Below, piece by piece: positions 18,400 through 27,146 of a stretch of DNA of 46,098 nt. Made by a program: the position numbers and the translations under genes. How positions within the stretch are numbered: the first letter of the stretch is position 1; each line of letters begins with the position of its first letter. Source of the DNA: Pseudomonas sp. BN417 (lineage in GTDB: Bacteria > Pseudomonadota > Gammaproteobacteria > Pseudomonadales > Pseudomonadaceae); the NCBI RefSeq assembly GCF_029871205.1, contig NZ_SSOJ01000139.1, positions 141-46,238 of the forward strand, read 5' to 3'. Under the pieces are notes generated by a model that was not told the DNA's origin, made no database searches, and saw only the letters and a list, made by a program, of their open reading frames with translations.

Positions 18400-18783
18400 T
18401 CAGGCGGGCTTGAAGCAGTAGGCAGCGACCTTGTTGCCGTCCAGGTCGCGGAAGTAGGCGGCGTACGCGTTCTCCTTCCAATTGCGCGGACCGGGAGCGC
18501 CTTCATCCTGGCCACCATGGGACAGGGCCGCCCGATGGGCGGCGTCGATGGCAGACCGGTCGGCTGCCTCGAAGCTGACGGTAACGCCATTGCCGACGGT
18601 GGCCGGCTGGCCGTTGGCGGGCTTGAGCACGAAGAACGAGGGTGCATCGACGCCCCAGATGGAGCCGTTCTCGCCGAGGTCGGCCAGGCGCTTCAGGCCG
18701 AGCTTGCCGAGCACGTCGTCATAAAAGGCGCGGGCCTTGGGCAGGTCGTTGGTACCGACGGTGACGTGTGTATAGACAGTCAT
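18400..18783 (-). CDS. VOC-superfamily (glyoxalase/bleomycin-resistance fold) protein
   Basis: Protein of 127 aa with one vicinal-oxygen-chelate domain: HVTVGTNDLPKARAFYDDVLGKLG at the start and the paired strand AAYFRDLDGNKVAAYCF near the end. It resembles the lactoylglutathione-lyase-like subgroup. His6 and Glu/Asp positions could bind a metal, but the exact reaction is unknown. It starts 19 bp after the S-(hydroxymethyl)glutathione dehydrogenase gene and is the last gene of the long minus-strand set. A role in handling a glutathione adduct or a thiol intermediate is a guess. Confidence 0.8.
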   Translation of the reverse strand: MTVYTHVTVGTNDLPKARAFYDDVLGKLGLKRLADLGENGSIWGVDAPSFFVLKPANGQPATVGNGVTVSFEAADRSAIDAAHRAALSHGGQDEGAPGPRNWKENAYAAYFRDLDGNKVAAYCFKPA

Positions 18784-18802
18784 TGTTCTCTCCTTGCTGT
18801 GG

Positions 18803-19915
18803 TCAGAAATGAATGACGCTGCGGATGCTCTTGCCCGCCCGCATCAGTTCGAATGCCTGGTTGATATCGTCCAGGCCCATGGTGTGGGTGATGAAGGTAT
18901 CCAGCGGAATCTCGCCCCGCCGCGCCATCTCCACATAGCTGGGCAGTTCGCTGCGGCCGCGTACGCCGCCGAAGGCCGAGCCTCGCCAGACCCGCCCGGT
19001 AACCAGCTGGAATGGCCGGGTGCTGATTTCCTGCCCGGCGCCGGCGACGCCGATGATCACCGACTCGCCCCAGCCCTTGTGGCAGCACTCCAGCGCCGCA
19101 CGCATCAGCTCCACGTTGCCGATGCACTCGAAGGAGTAGTCCACACCGCCATCGGTGAGGTCGACGATGACGTCCTGGATCGGCCGGTCGTAGTCGCGCG
19201 GATCGATGCAGTCGGTGGCGCCGAGCTGGCGGGCGATCTCGAACTTGGCCGGGTTGATGTCCACGACCAGGATCCGTTCTGCGCCGGCCTTCACCGCACC
19301 GATGATCGCCGACAGGCCGATGCCGCCAAGGCCGAAGATCGCCACGCTGGAGCCCGCCCGGACCTTGGCGGTGTTGAGCACCGCGCCGATTCCGGTGGTG
19401 ACGCCGCAACCCAGCAGGCAGACCTTCTCCAGCGGTGCCTCCCGGGGAATCTTCGCCAGGGCGATTTCCGGCAGCACCGTGTATTCGGAAAAGGTCGAGG
19501 TGCCCATGTAGTGGAACAGCGGCCGGCCCTGATAGGAGAAGCGCGTGGTGCCATCGGGCATCAGGCCCTTGCCCTGGGTGGCGCGGATCGCCTGGCACAG
19601 GTTGGTCCTGCCCGAGCGGCAGAACCTGCACCGCCCGCATTCGGGCGTATACAGCGGGATCACGTGATCGCCGACCGCGACCGAGGTTACCCCCGGGCCG
19701 ACCGCTTCGACGATGCCGCCGCCTTCATGGCCGAGGATGCTCGGGAAGAGGCCTTCCGGGTCGGCCCCGGACAGGGTGTACGCGTCGGTATGGCAGACGC
19801 CGCTGGCGACGATGCGCACCAGCACCTCAAAGGCCCTGGGCGGCGCCACATCCACTTCGACGATCTGCAATGGCCGCCGTTGTTCGAAGGCAACGGCAGC
19901 ACGGGATTTGATCAT
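18803..19915 (-). CDS. frmA: S-(hydroxymethyl)glutathione dehydrogenase/class III alcohol dehydrogenase
   Basis: Zinc-dependent class III alcohol dehydrogenase, 370 aa. Catalytic zinc ligands include Cys41 (GVCHTDAY) and His63-Glu64 (LGHEGGG). The structural zinc is held by Cys93, Cys96, Cys99 and Cys107 ([15 protein letters not shown]). GLGGIG is the NAD-binding turn. The enzyme oxidises the adduct of formaldehyde and glutathione. The usual partner, S-formylglutathione hydrolase, is not adjacent. Instead the gene sits in a set with a Rieske oxygenase and reductase of demethylase type. The simplest reading is that it removes formaldehyde released by demethylation. The start is placed at MIKSRAAV (19915); the frame continues to 19975 without recognisable homology. 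Confidence 0.9.
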
Positions 19916-19971
19916 GCCTGTATCTCCTGGCCTGGACCGGCCCGGCGCGTCGCCCGGGCCGGCTTCGGGGT

Positions 19972-24839: not shown

Positions 24840-24970
24840 CTCTGTATTCTCCGATGCGAAACCACAGGGGGTCGTAAGGGGCGTGCAAGGCAAGGCGAAT
24901 CACAGCTCGGGCGTCGGTTCGATAGGCATTCCATCCGTACTCGGTCGATAGTCGGCAGCCGCGGCCGCCA

Positions 24971-26089
24971 TCAGTTGTCCAGCGCCAGCACCACCGGGGA
25001 GGTCGGCCGCGCGCAGCACAGCAACACCTGGCCCGCTTCGGGCTCCACCAGCGGGGCTTCGGTGTACTCGACGCTACCGCTCAGAAGGGGCGTCAGGCAG
25101 GAGTTGCACAATCCGACGCGGCAGCTGAAAGGCGGCTTGAGTCCCGCCTGCTCGGCGCAATCCAGCAGCGACGGGCTGGCCGGGTCCCAGGCGACGGCCC
25201 GGCCGGAGGGCTCGAAGCGCACTGTCAGTTCCGTATCGGCCGCGGGAGCCGGACCTGTCGGCGTCGGCCTGGCGGGTGTGGCTGGCGTCTCGTCTTCGTC
25301 GAGAATCGTCGCCGGACCAAAGAACTCGTAGCGAATCCGCGCTTTGTCGATTCCCAGGCTGCGCAGCAGACGCCAGTTCGCCTGCATGAAGGGGCGCGGC
25401 CCGCACAGGTAGACGTCGTAGTCATCCAGCGGCAGCAACCCCTGCAGGGTGTCCCTGCTGACCAGCCCGCTGCTGTGGTGATGACCGCGCTCCAGGTCTT
25501 GCGCAGTCGGTGCTCGATAGCAGAAGTGCACGGCGATCCCGCTGCGCCTCGCCGCCAGTGCCAGCACCTCCTCGCGCAGGGCGTGGACGGCGCCGTTCTC
25601 GCAGGCGTGGATGAAGTACACCTGGCGCGTCGAGCGGGTGGCCAGGCGGTGCAGCATGCTCACCATGGGCGTCAGCCCGACCCCGCCGCTGAACAGCAGC
25701 ACCGGACGCTCGCTGTCCTCGTCGAGGACGAAGTCGCCGGACGGGCCGGCGATATCCAGCTCTTCGCCGATCTCCACCGCCTTGTGCAGGAAGCTCGAGC
25801 CGACGCCCGCCGGCACATCGGGCAGATGCGCCGGAGGCAACTCGTGCTTCACCGAGATGCGCACCTGCGTATGGTCATCCGGGTCACCGGACAGGCTGTA
25901 GGCGCGCAGCACCTGCGGGCCTTCGGTGCCGGGGACGCGCAGCACGATGAACTGCCCCGGGCGGAACTCCACGGGCCCGCCGTTCGCGGCGGGCTTCAGC
26001 ACGAACGAGGTGATCGACGCGCTCTCCCGTACCTTTCCGGTCACCTGGAAGCGAGCGAACCCCCTGGTGGCGGGAATCGGCTCAAACAT
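24971..26089 (-). CDS. Rieske oxygenase reductase (FAD/NAD plus C-terminal 2Fe-2S)
   Basis: Electron-transfer reductase of 372 aa. The N-terminal FAD domain has RAYSLSG, the NAD(P) domain has LLFSGGVGLTP, and the C-terminal plant-type 2Fe-2S ferredoxin domain has Cys323, Cys328 and Cys331 with a fourth Cys at 358 or 359. It passes electrons from NAD(P)H to the Rieske oxygenase encoded immediately upstream. Its ATG overlaps the end of the oxygenase gene by 8 bp, and GAGGT sits nine bases before it, so 26089 is preferred to 26104. A linker of Pro, Thr and Ala residues (about 280-305) separates the ferredoxin domain. A gap of 131 bp before the binding-protein gene shows nothing notable. Confidence 0.9.
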   Translation of the reverse strand: MFEPIPATRGFARFQVTGKVRESASITSFVLKPAANGGPVEFRPGQFIVLRVPGTEGPQVLRAYSLSGDPDDHTQVRISVKHELPPAHLPDVPAGVGSSFLHKAVEIGEELDIAGPSGDFVLDEDSERPVLLFSGGVGLTPMVSMLHRLATRSTRQVYFIHACENGAVHALREEVLALAARRSGIAVHFCYRAPTAQDLERGHHHSSGLVSRDTLQGLLPLDDYDVYLCGPRPFMQANWRLLRSLGIDKARIRYEFFGPATILDEDETPATPARPTPTGPAPAADTELTVRFEPSGRAVAWDPASPSLLDCAEQAGLKPPFSCRVGLCNSCLTPLLSGSVEYTEAPLVEPEAGQVLLCCARPTSPVVLALDN

Positions 26090-27146
26090 GGGCCTGGACC
26101 TCATGGGTGCTGCGCCTATCGGCTACGGCTTCCAGCTCCTCGCGGATCAGCCGTTCCATGGCACGGCGGAAGCGCAGCGGACCGGAGTCGATGGCCAGGT
26201 CGATGTTCGGCGTCTGGCGGTTCTTCATGCCCGCATGCACGGCGGCGAGCACCACGCGGTCCTCTTCGAAGGCGCGACGCACGTCCGCGGCGAACCGGCG
26301 GGACACGGCCTCGTCATCGGCATCGAAGTTGCGCAGCTGGAACCAGTAGTAACGGGTCCGGTTCTCGTCCACCGGCGTCATGAAGTTGTACGAGTCCATG
26401 AGGAACGCCTTCTCGTGGACCGGCGCGCGGTCGCCACCAGTGCCGGCCGGGGTATGCACGCCCTTGATGATCGCGTGGGACGGATAGCGCACCTCGTAGT
26501 ACTGCAGGCGGTCGCAGCGCCCCTCGAACTTGAGGTACTGGGTGTAGAACGGCGCCACATCGATGTCGTACAGCCAGCGCGAAACCACCACACCATCGTC
26601 GGTCACTCGGGTCTGCAGGGGCTCCGATTCGCAGGCCGCGGTGCCGAAGGTGCTCTGGTGCACCCAGGCGACATGGGACGGGTCCAGCAGGTTGTCGGTC
26701 ATGTACAGGTAGTTGCACTCGACGGTCATCGAGTCGCCGCGATTGACGCCCCAGTCCGGGTGATCCCATTCGGGGATATCGACGATCTTTGCCGGATCGG
26801 CCAGCAGCGGGTCGCCCATCCACAGCCAGACCAGGCCATAGCGCTCCTCCACCGGGTAGCTGCGCACCTTCGCGGCCTGCGGCACCCGCGCCACGCAGCT
26901 GGCCTTCACACAGGAACCCGAGCAATCGAAGGTCAGCCCGTGGTAGCCGCATTCGACCAGGTCGCCCTGCAGGCGCCCCATGGAGAGCGGCAGCTTGCGG
27001 TGGGGGCAGGCGTCCTCCAGGGCCACCACGCCACCGTCGGCCTTGCGATAGAGAACAATGGGTTCGCCAAGGAGAATGGTCGCATGCAGGGCCTGCTTCA
27101 CTTCGGTATCCCAGGCGGCGACATACCAGGCGTTTCTCAAGAACAT
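26082..27146 (-). CDS. Rieske non-haem iron oxygenase, demethylase type (VanA-like)
   Basis: Oxygenase subunit of 354 aa. The Rieske 2Fe-2S ligands are Cys47, His49, Cys66 and His69 (CPHR and CGYHG). The mononuclear iron site is DNLLDPSHVAWVH, with Asp155 as the inter-subunit bridge and His158 and His163 as ligands. It resembles the vanillate O-demethylase group of single-component oxygenases, which includes many O- and N-demethylases, rather than ring dioxygenases with beta subunits; no beta subunit gene is present. It is the first gene of a nine-gene set that also contains formaldehyde-linked frmA, supporting demethylation. The substrate is unknown. A divergent GcvA-like LysR gene lies 154 bp away. 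Confidence 0.9.
   Translation of the reverse strand: MFLRNAWYVAAWDTEVKQALHATILLGEPIVLYRKADGGVVALEDACPHRKLPLSMGRLQGDLVECGYHGLTFDCSGSCVKASCVARVPQAAKVRSYPVEERYGLVWLWMGDPLLADPAKIVDIPEWDHPDWGVNRGDSMTVECNYLYMTDNLLDPSHVAWVHQSTFGTAACESEPLQTRVTDDGVVVSRWLYDIDVAPFYTQYLKFEGRCDRLQYYEVRYPSHAIIKGVHTPAGTGGDRAPVHEKAFLMDSYNFMTPVDENRTRYYWFQLRNFDADDEAVSRRFAADVRRAFEEDRVVLAAVHAGMKNRQTPNIDLAIDSGPLRFRRAMERLIREELEAVADRRSTHEVQAHV

Follow-up and report, generated by a model that had tools for sequence, protein, structure and literature searches.

In the genome of Pseudomonas sp. BN417, we analysed a stretch of 46,098 nucleotides (contig NZ_SSOJ01000139.1, positions 141 to 46,238; hereafter the window) that contains a candidate catabolic operon. 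The operon combines a Rieske oxygenase with an amino acid importer and with a homologue of histidine ammonia-lyase (HutH) that lacks the residues forming the cofactor 4-methylideneimidazole-5-one (MIO). Catabolism of methylated histidines is the best reading of this operon, and it is better supported than from the window sequence alone. The operon is carried on contig C133 of the 6.56 Mb host genome (G000) and consists of nine minus-strand genes, all of which are open frames, with gaps of -23 to 109 bases between them when the listed starts are used; a LysR gene lies divergently on the plus strand. An earlier note, made from the letters of this DNA, had described nine co-directed genes of these families and a divergent GcvA-like regulator, and our checks of frames, Pfam and NCBIfam recovered all of them in place. 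Families were called for the window proteins by Pfam and NCBIfam profile searches and by sequence comparison to the Protein Data Bank (PDB). The genes are as follows:

26082..27146, minus strand: VanA-type Rieske oxygenase, 354 amino acids (VanA_C 164.6 bits, Rieske 71.7 bits)
24971..26104, minus strand: reductase with FAD, NAD and 2Fe-2S domains (Pfam/NCBIfam)
23988..24893, minus strand: periplasmic amino-acid-binding protein of the Lys/Arg/Orn/His type (SBP_bac_3; TIGR01096 201.7 bits, below the cut-off of 256.35)
23168..23878, minus strand: ATP-binding cassette (ABC) permease, HisQ/ArtQ-like (Pfam/NCBIfam)
22417..23154, minus strand: ABC permease, ArtM/HisM-like (Pfam/NCBIfam)
21635..22420, minus strand: ABC ATPase, HisP-like (PRK10619 322 bits, below the cut-off of 466)
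19972..21561, minus strand: MIO-free HutH-like lyase (Lyase_aromatic 538.1 bits)
18803..19975, minus strand: S-(hydroxymethyl)glutathione dehydrogenase FrmA, a class III alcohol dehydrogenase (TIGR02818 699.4 bits, cut-off 543.95); a check of start candidates places the start probably at 19915 rather than at the listed 19975
18400..18783, minus strand: VOC-fold (glyoxalase-fold) protein (PF00903 38.9 bits)
27280..28242, plus strand, divergent: LysR-type regulator, GcvA-like (Pfam/NCBIfam)

The binding protein, the two permeases and the ATPase make up a complete set for a polar amino acid ABC importer, with the histidine and arginine models below their cut-offs. The reductase frame overlaps the Rieske frame by 23 bases (listed start), and we take the reductase as the partner of the Rieske oxygenase.

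The MIO-forming stretch of HutH is GSVGASGDLAPLAH. Alignment to HutH shows that the Ala-Ser-Gly triad is gone from the window lyase, as the note had read, with ASGD replaced by Y. This loss is common to all 15 window-type lyases that remained after removal of duplicates, which comprise six from Pseudomonas, eight from Burkholderiaceae loci (61-62% identical to the window lyase) and one from a plasmid of Deltaproteobacteria bacterium Smac51 (51% identical). The window lyase keeps Y68, H98, N208, Q288, Y291, R294, F343 and E428 (full-length numbering), which match Y53, H83, N195, Q277, Y280, R283, F329 and E414 of Pseudomonas putida HutH. H98 and E428 are the counterparts of the imidazole contacts in HutH. 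As these two are kept, the substrate of the lyase is likely an imidazole compound, in agreement with an imidazole-type pocket. Without MIO, such a lyase would presumably depend on a leaving group better than ammonia, as ergothionase does with trimethylamine.

Among PDB proteins, the best match of the window lyase is a HutH (338.9 bits), and ergothionase (6s7j) reaches 149.8 bits. Of the HutH family models, PRK09367 scores 537.4 (cut-off 524) and TIGR01225 scores 533.6 (cut-off 539.15). The window lyase resembles HutH in its fold family and in all other checked active-site positions, whereas it lacks the MIO-forming triad, lies outside any hut operon and is only 34-42% identical to the four HutHs that were aligned. 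In a tree of 52 sequences (66 before identical rows were dropped), the window-type lyases form one side of a branch with a support of 100/100, and HutH1-like MIO-free proteins are separate (98/99). The single ergothionase-like row sits on a very long branch and its exact position is unsure. Two further observations concern this protein family. The hut region of the host contains, beside the true HutH, a second MIO-free HutH-like protein with the loop GSVGYLTHMAH (G000:C53:31569-33050; coordinates given with it are L002 1486-3015 and L058 13555-15084), whose clade has seven rows with members in G024, G135, three Burkholderiaceae and an Agrobacterium, and which we assume is perhaps HutH1 of P. 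fluorescens. Furthermore, the 3' end of the window lyase gene carries a perfect 21-base tandem repeat of 2.4 copies (window 19980-20029) that encodes a repeated ATVDRTL tail.

The same note had likened the lyase to ergothionase, and membership of the ergothionase family is not supported. Ergothionase lacks MIO and occurs in some microorganisms (PMC13405746). Our comparison rests on 6s7j and on a protein of Trinickia terrae, with the ergothionase sequence of Burkholderia sp. HME13 outside the comparison. The window lyase and ergothionase (6s7j; Treponema denticola, Burkholderia sp. HME13) are alike in being MIO-free, in their superfamily and in the elimination of trimethylamine that may be proposed for the former; however, the loop reads GSVGYL in the window lyase and IGE[AG]DIT in the ergothionase type, the two lie on different tree branches, and searches with the desulfurase and hutU models revealed no ergothioneine-pathway genes in the Pseudomonas lyase genomes. 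T. terrae (G772) serves as a control, as its contig C71 encodes a window-type lyase and its contig C1 a different MIO-free protein that is 27% identical to the query. The best PDB match of the C1 protein is ergothionase (258 bits), its loop is IGEADIT compared to IGEGDIT in 6s7j, and its gene adjoins those for thiourocanate hydratase (1038.8 bits, cut-off 930) and thiohydantoin desulfurase (611.5 bits, cut-off 440). We searched nine lyase genomes, six from Pseudomonas and three of the eight from Burkholderiaceae, for hutU and the desulfurase. The desulfurase is above the cut-off in one of the nine (Trinickia, one of the three Burkholderiaceae) and has no match in the six Pseudomonas genomes. 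With the hutU model, the Pseudomonas genomes show an ordinary hutU (>1020 bits; one also short fragments) and Trinickia also the hydratase (691 bits); a thiourocanate-hydratase-like second match is absent in the six Pseudomonas genomes, as judged from the hutU-model matches only. By these comparisons, the window lyase does not look like an ergothionase and belongs to a clade of its own. The region on the Trinickia contig C1 (L105 5650-11420) is in itself an apparent ergothioneine catabolic cluster of ergothionase-like lyase, a transporter resembling the major facilitator superfamily, thiourocanate hydratase and thiohydantoin desulfurase. In 2022, Yan and others reportedly described an ergothioneine sulfonate pathway from bacteria.

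To describe the conservation of the operon, we used a draw of 198 genomes of the same family (cut-offs E 1e-120 for the lyase and E 1e-110 for the Rieske oxygenase). The lyase is found in four of these, host included, and the Rieske oxygenase in those same four. Adding the named loci H9 and S4446-10 results in a set of six Pseudomonas operons, and all six keep the order of divergent LysR, Rieske oxygenase, reductase, binding protein, permease, permease, ATPase and lyase. This seven-gene order is more than chance, and the co-occurrence across genomes that had been named as a check is thus found for the first seven genes. FrmA follows the lyase in three of the six operons and the VOC gene is present in four, which suggests that both are accessory. 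Among 398 genomes drawn across the phylum, two contain the lyase, host included (E 1e-140). The operon is therefore rare and patchy in distribution.

The Burkholderiaceae unit consists of the lyase, a binding protein and a LysR regulator in all eight loci, and no permease gene was recognised beside the lyase in any of them. Since these three genes stay together, we conclude that the binding protein and the lyase belong together. The binding protein of the window is 46-49% identical to the eight lyase-linked ones from Burkholderiaceae and 26-33% identical to seven Rieske-linked ones. Combined with the Burkholderiaceae that have the lyase without a close Rieske oxygenase, these identities suggest that the imported compound is probably the substrate of the lyase and that the lyase product seems to be usable without the Rieske oxygenase. 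A molybdenum hydroxylase upstream of the Paraburkholderia lyase was considered as a partner and dropped, as it occurs in only one of the eight loci. All nine lyase genomes searched, including the three Burkholderiaceae, contain hutU. The host has two full copies of hutU (C53 and C96) and hutH at C53, so that hut steps, which had been expected elsewhere in the genome, are indeed encoded there.

The Rieske oxygenase belongs to the VanA family, with both metal-site motifs (the Rieske motif at residue 47 and the iron-site motif D...D..H....H at residue 151) and the VanA_C domain; its top PDB relatives are 7qwt and then dicamba demethylase. These domains, and a FrmA model above its cut-off, confirm the pairing of a demethylase-family oxygenase with a gene for formaldehyde disposal. 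The family and the FrmA neighbours suggest that the Rieske enzyme performs an oxidative demethylation. The Rieske motif, the mononuclear iron motif and the VanA_C domain are shared with vanillate and dicamba demethylases; however, in many of the loci viewed, relatives have hut genes or amino-acid importers as neighbours.

Rieske relatives have a wider spread than the lyase, as they occur in 12 of the 398 phylum-wide genomes (E 1e-110). With the L051 protein as the query, they were found in 37 of 198 genomes of family f55, and plasmid-borne relatives are up to 72% identical. We viewed 35 Rieske loci, namely the best 32 of 40 matches in f55 and three from the phylum-wide draw (one of family f46); the eight weakest f55 matches, six plasmid loci (L026-L031) and four f51 loci (L046-L049) stand outside this count. 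Hut genes lie within about 10 kb of the Rieske relative in 10 of the 35 loci (L051, L052 with hutH only, L054, L107, L108, L109, L110, L148, L151 and L154), where a weak 24% HutH-like match in L147 was not counted. For instance, the Rieske gene of L051 lies directly behind hutI-hutH-hutG-hutU, where the hutU frame, stop codon not counted, ends at 9929 and the Rieske frame starts at 9937, and that of L108 is found next to a hut operon, accompanied by LysR and FrmA (599.5 bits, cut-off 543.95). There are at least four arrangements: behind hutU (L051, L054, L107, L148), tail to tail with hutU (L108, L109, L110), beyond the hutC/hutF end (L151) and beside LysR and hutH (L052). These different arrangements suggest more than one linkage event. 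By our own rough estimate, made with no control set, the chance that a random gene lies this near to the only hut operon of a 4 Mb genome is about 1% or less. In a quick Rieske tree of 48 rows (75 before identical rows were dropped; the hut-linked L148 is not a row), the nine hut-linked rows lie apart and well-supported branches force nine changes. The Rieske proteins of the lyase operons lie on one side of a branch (SH-aLRT 100), next to sequences from P. fragi and from Paraburkholderia plasmids. The HutHs of the hut-linked loci keep the residues ASG in all seven cases checked (L051, L052, L054, L107-L110). Trimethylamine is thus disfavoured as a substrate of the Rieske oxygenase, as its relatives adjoin hut genes with such HutHs.

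Other Rieske relatives have importer and DUF2817 genes as neighbours. Plasmids of P. fragi (a meat isolate) and P. migulae carry LysR, a His-type importer, DUF2817, the Rieske oxygenase and the reductase, and two Paraburkholderia plasmids carry a binding protein, a PhyH-like gene, LysR, the Rieske oxygenase, the reductase and DUF2817. Seven loci (L028, L029, L046-L049, L143) contain the Rieske oxygenase, the reductase, DUF2817, a binding protein and permeases, together with an FAD-linked oxidase (7/7) and a HisC-like transaminase (6/7). DUF2817 may be a hydrolase, as suggested by a weak AstE/AspA match (24.1 bits, below the cut-off of 25); the P. fragi protein had no NCBIfam match and no convincing PDB match. 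We can only guess that it cleaves anserine-type dipeptides, and the meat origin of P. fragi makes anserine (beta-alanyl-methylhistidine) an attractive candidate substrate. The plasmid, importer and DUF2817 contexts would fit a ring-N-methylhistidine. In many f55 loci, a 361-residue protein (L053 12191-13273 and relatives) is also found near the Rieske gene, often next to LysR; it matches neither a Pfam family (E 0.1) nor an NCBIfam family (1e-5), and comparison to the PDB gave no convincing relative.

From these sequence comparisons, we infer all substrates and reactions, as well as a shared physiological role of the lyase and the Rieske oxygenase. We tentatively propose, at somewhat short of an even chance, that the operon serves the utilisation of N-methylated histidines, with both enzymes feeding the hut pathway. 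The His-type ABC importer would bring the methylated histidine into the cell. The MIO-free lyase would then expel trimethylamine from a histidine betaine (hercynine or a close derivative) to yield urocanate; MIO would be unnecessary because trimethylamine is a good leaving group. The Rieske oxygenase and its reductase would release a methyl group in the form of formaldehyde, most probably one on an imidazole nitrogen of methylhistidine, and FrmA would oxidise this formaldehyde by way of its glutathione adduct. The hut pathway, whose genes lie elsewhere in the genome, would receive the urocanate and histidine, with urocanate passing to HutU. The conversion of hercynine to urocanate and trimethylamine is the simplest fit for the lyase. 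In Pseudomonas, the operon would add a demethylase that acts on a second methylated histidine or on a methyl group at the ring of the same compound. Of the earlier idea of an operon for a methylated amino acid, the conserved operon stands, and methylated-histidine breakdown is its best reading; the kinship to ergothionase is not supported, and the single linear pathway is doubtful.

Several observations weigh against our proposal. The lyase and the Rieske oxygenase are separable: a Rieske protein of more than 50% identity is missing in seven of the eight Burkholderiaceae lyase genomes (E 1e-60; the remaining one has 54%), none of the 35 Rieske loci outside Pseudomonas shows a window-type lyase, and the Rieske oxygenase stands without the lyase in plasmid, f51 and f55 loci, which makes a single linear route doubtful. 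Three of the six Pseudomonas operons have no FrmA. There is no clear hut gene within about 10 kb in 25 of the 35 Rieske loci, several of whose stretches end at contig ends, and the scattered hut linkage could result from repeated loss as well as from repeated gain. Lastly, sarcosine-oxidase-like genes lie near six of the 35 Rieske loci (by Pfam in L053 and L110; by BLAST in L142, L149, L155 and L158), L110 combines SoxB/A and an MTTB-family protein with a hut operon, and MTTB-like matches at 30% occur in L147 and L149. Such neighbours fit a demethylation of the alpha-nitrogen rather than of the ring.

These neighbours favour the alternative that the Rieske oxygenase demethylates the alpha-nitrogen of hercynine, just as GbcA acts on glycine betaine, with the lyase serving a related betaine or branch. 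The glycine betaine monooxygenase GbcAB, which releases formaldehyde, likewise consists of a Rieske protein and an FAD/2Fe-2S reductase. However, the window oxygenase is VanA-type, and its reductase has only 127.4 bits to the GbcB model, far below the cut-off of 500 (the best model, flavohemoprotein with 253.8 bits, is also below its cut-off). Furthermore, no additional N-demethylase was recognised in the Pseudomonas operon, L051, L054, L107 or L108, the loss of one alpha-methyl would spoil the leaving group of the lyase, and the P. fragi and P. migulae plasmid clusters, within the stretches viewed, consist of the LysR, importer, DUF2817, Rieske and reductase genes described above. We consider this alternative unlikely, and ring demethylation would have the edge over it. 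An equally low probability is given to two independent modules under one promoter, with the Rieske oxygenase acting on methylhistidine or anserine-type compounds and the lyase on a betaine. Such a division would explain the Rieske gene with DUF2817 and an importer on plasmids and the lyase with a binding protein and LysR in Burkholderiaceae, whereas the Pseudomonas operons have a single importer, a single regulator and an intact stretch from Rieske gene to lyase in all six cases.

Less probable still is that both enzymes act in succession on one compound, a histidine methylated at a ring nitrogen and at the alpha-nitrogen, where the lyase comes before the Rieske oxygenase, which would N-demethylate methylurocanate to urocanate. 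The lyase would then be a new enzyme class in which a fixed positive charge of the substrate replaces the MIO electrophile; this charge would sit either on the quaternary amine or on an N-methylimidazolium ring, which would make the beta-protons more acidic. Degradation of ergothioneine, with the lyase as an ergothionase that gives thiourocanate and trimethylamine, would agree with a MIO-free enzyme of the same superfamily with an imidazole-type pocket. We nevertheless reject this substrate as very unlikely on the comparison with 6s7j and the T. terrae protein, since 6s7j is only a distant relative from a separate clade, since the pathway genes of T. terrae, which holds both types, adjoin the other MIO-free lyase, and since the six Pseudomonas genomes show neither the desulfurase nor a hydratase-like second match. 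VanA-type oxygenases usually act on methoxy-aromatics, and dicamba O-demethylase is the second-best PDB match of the Rieske oxygenase, so that the substrate might be another aromatic or methoxylated amino acid that is not derived from histidine. This is the least probable explanation, as the pocket residues of the lyase are those of HutH and ten of the 35 Rieske relatives lie near hut genes.

A promoter scan revealed no promoter-like site, and terminator-like sites were fewer than in shuffled sequences. The genes next to the operon (window 14620-18338) encode another polar amino acid binding protein and another permease, a class III aminotransferase (PRK07483) and a protein whose match to carboxymuconolactone decarboxylase stays below the threshold.

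Muscle, fungi and soil commonly contain methylhistidines and hercynine. Our literature search, which had most subscription journals outside its coverage, found no description of bacterial genes for the breakdown of methylhistidine or hercynine. The present analysis offers two enzyme families that can be tested, namely a clade of MIO-free HutH homologues distinct from ergothionase, and a Rieske family that is partly found beside histidine-utilisation genes. If our proposal is true, clade members that are annotated as histidine ammonia-lyase, such as the one on the Smac51 plasmid, would be misnamed, and the lyase would be a further bacterial source of trimethylamine.

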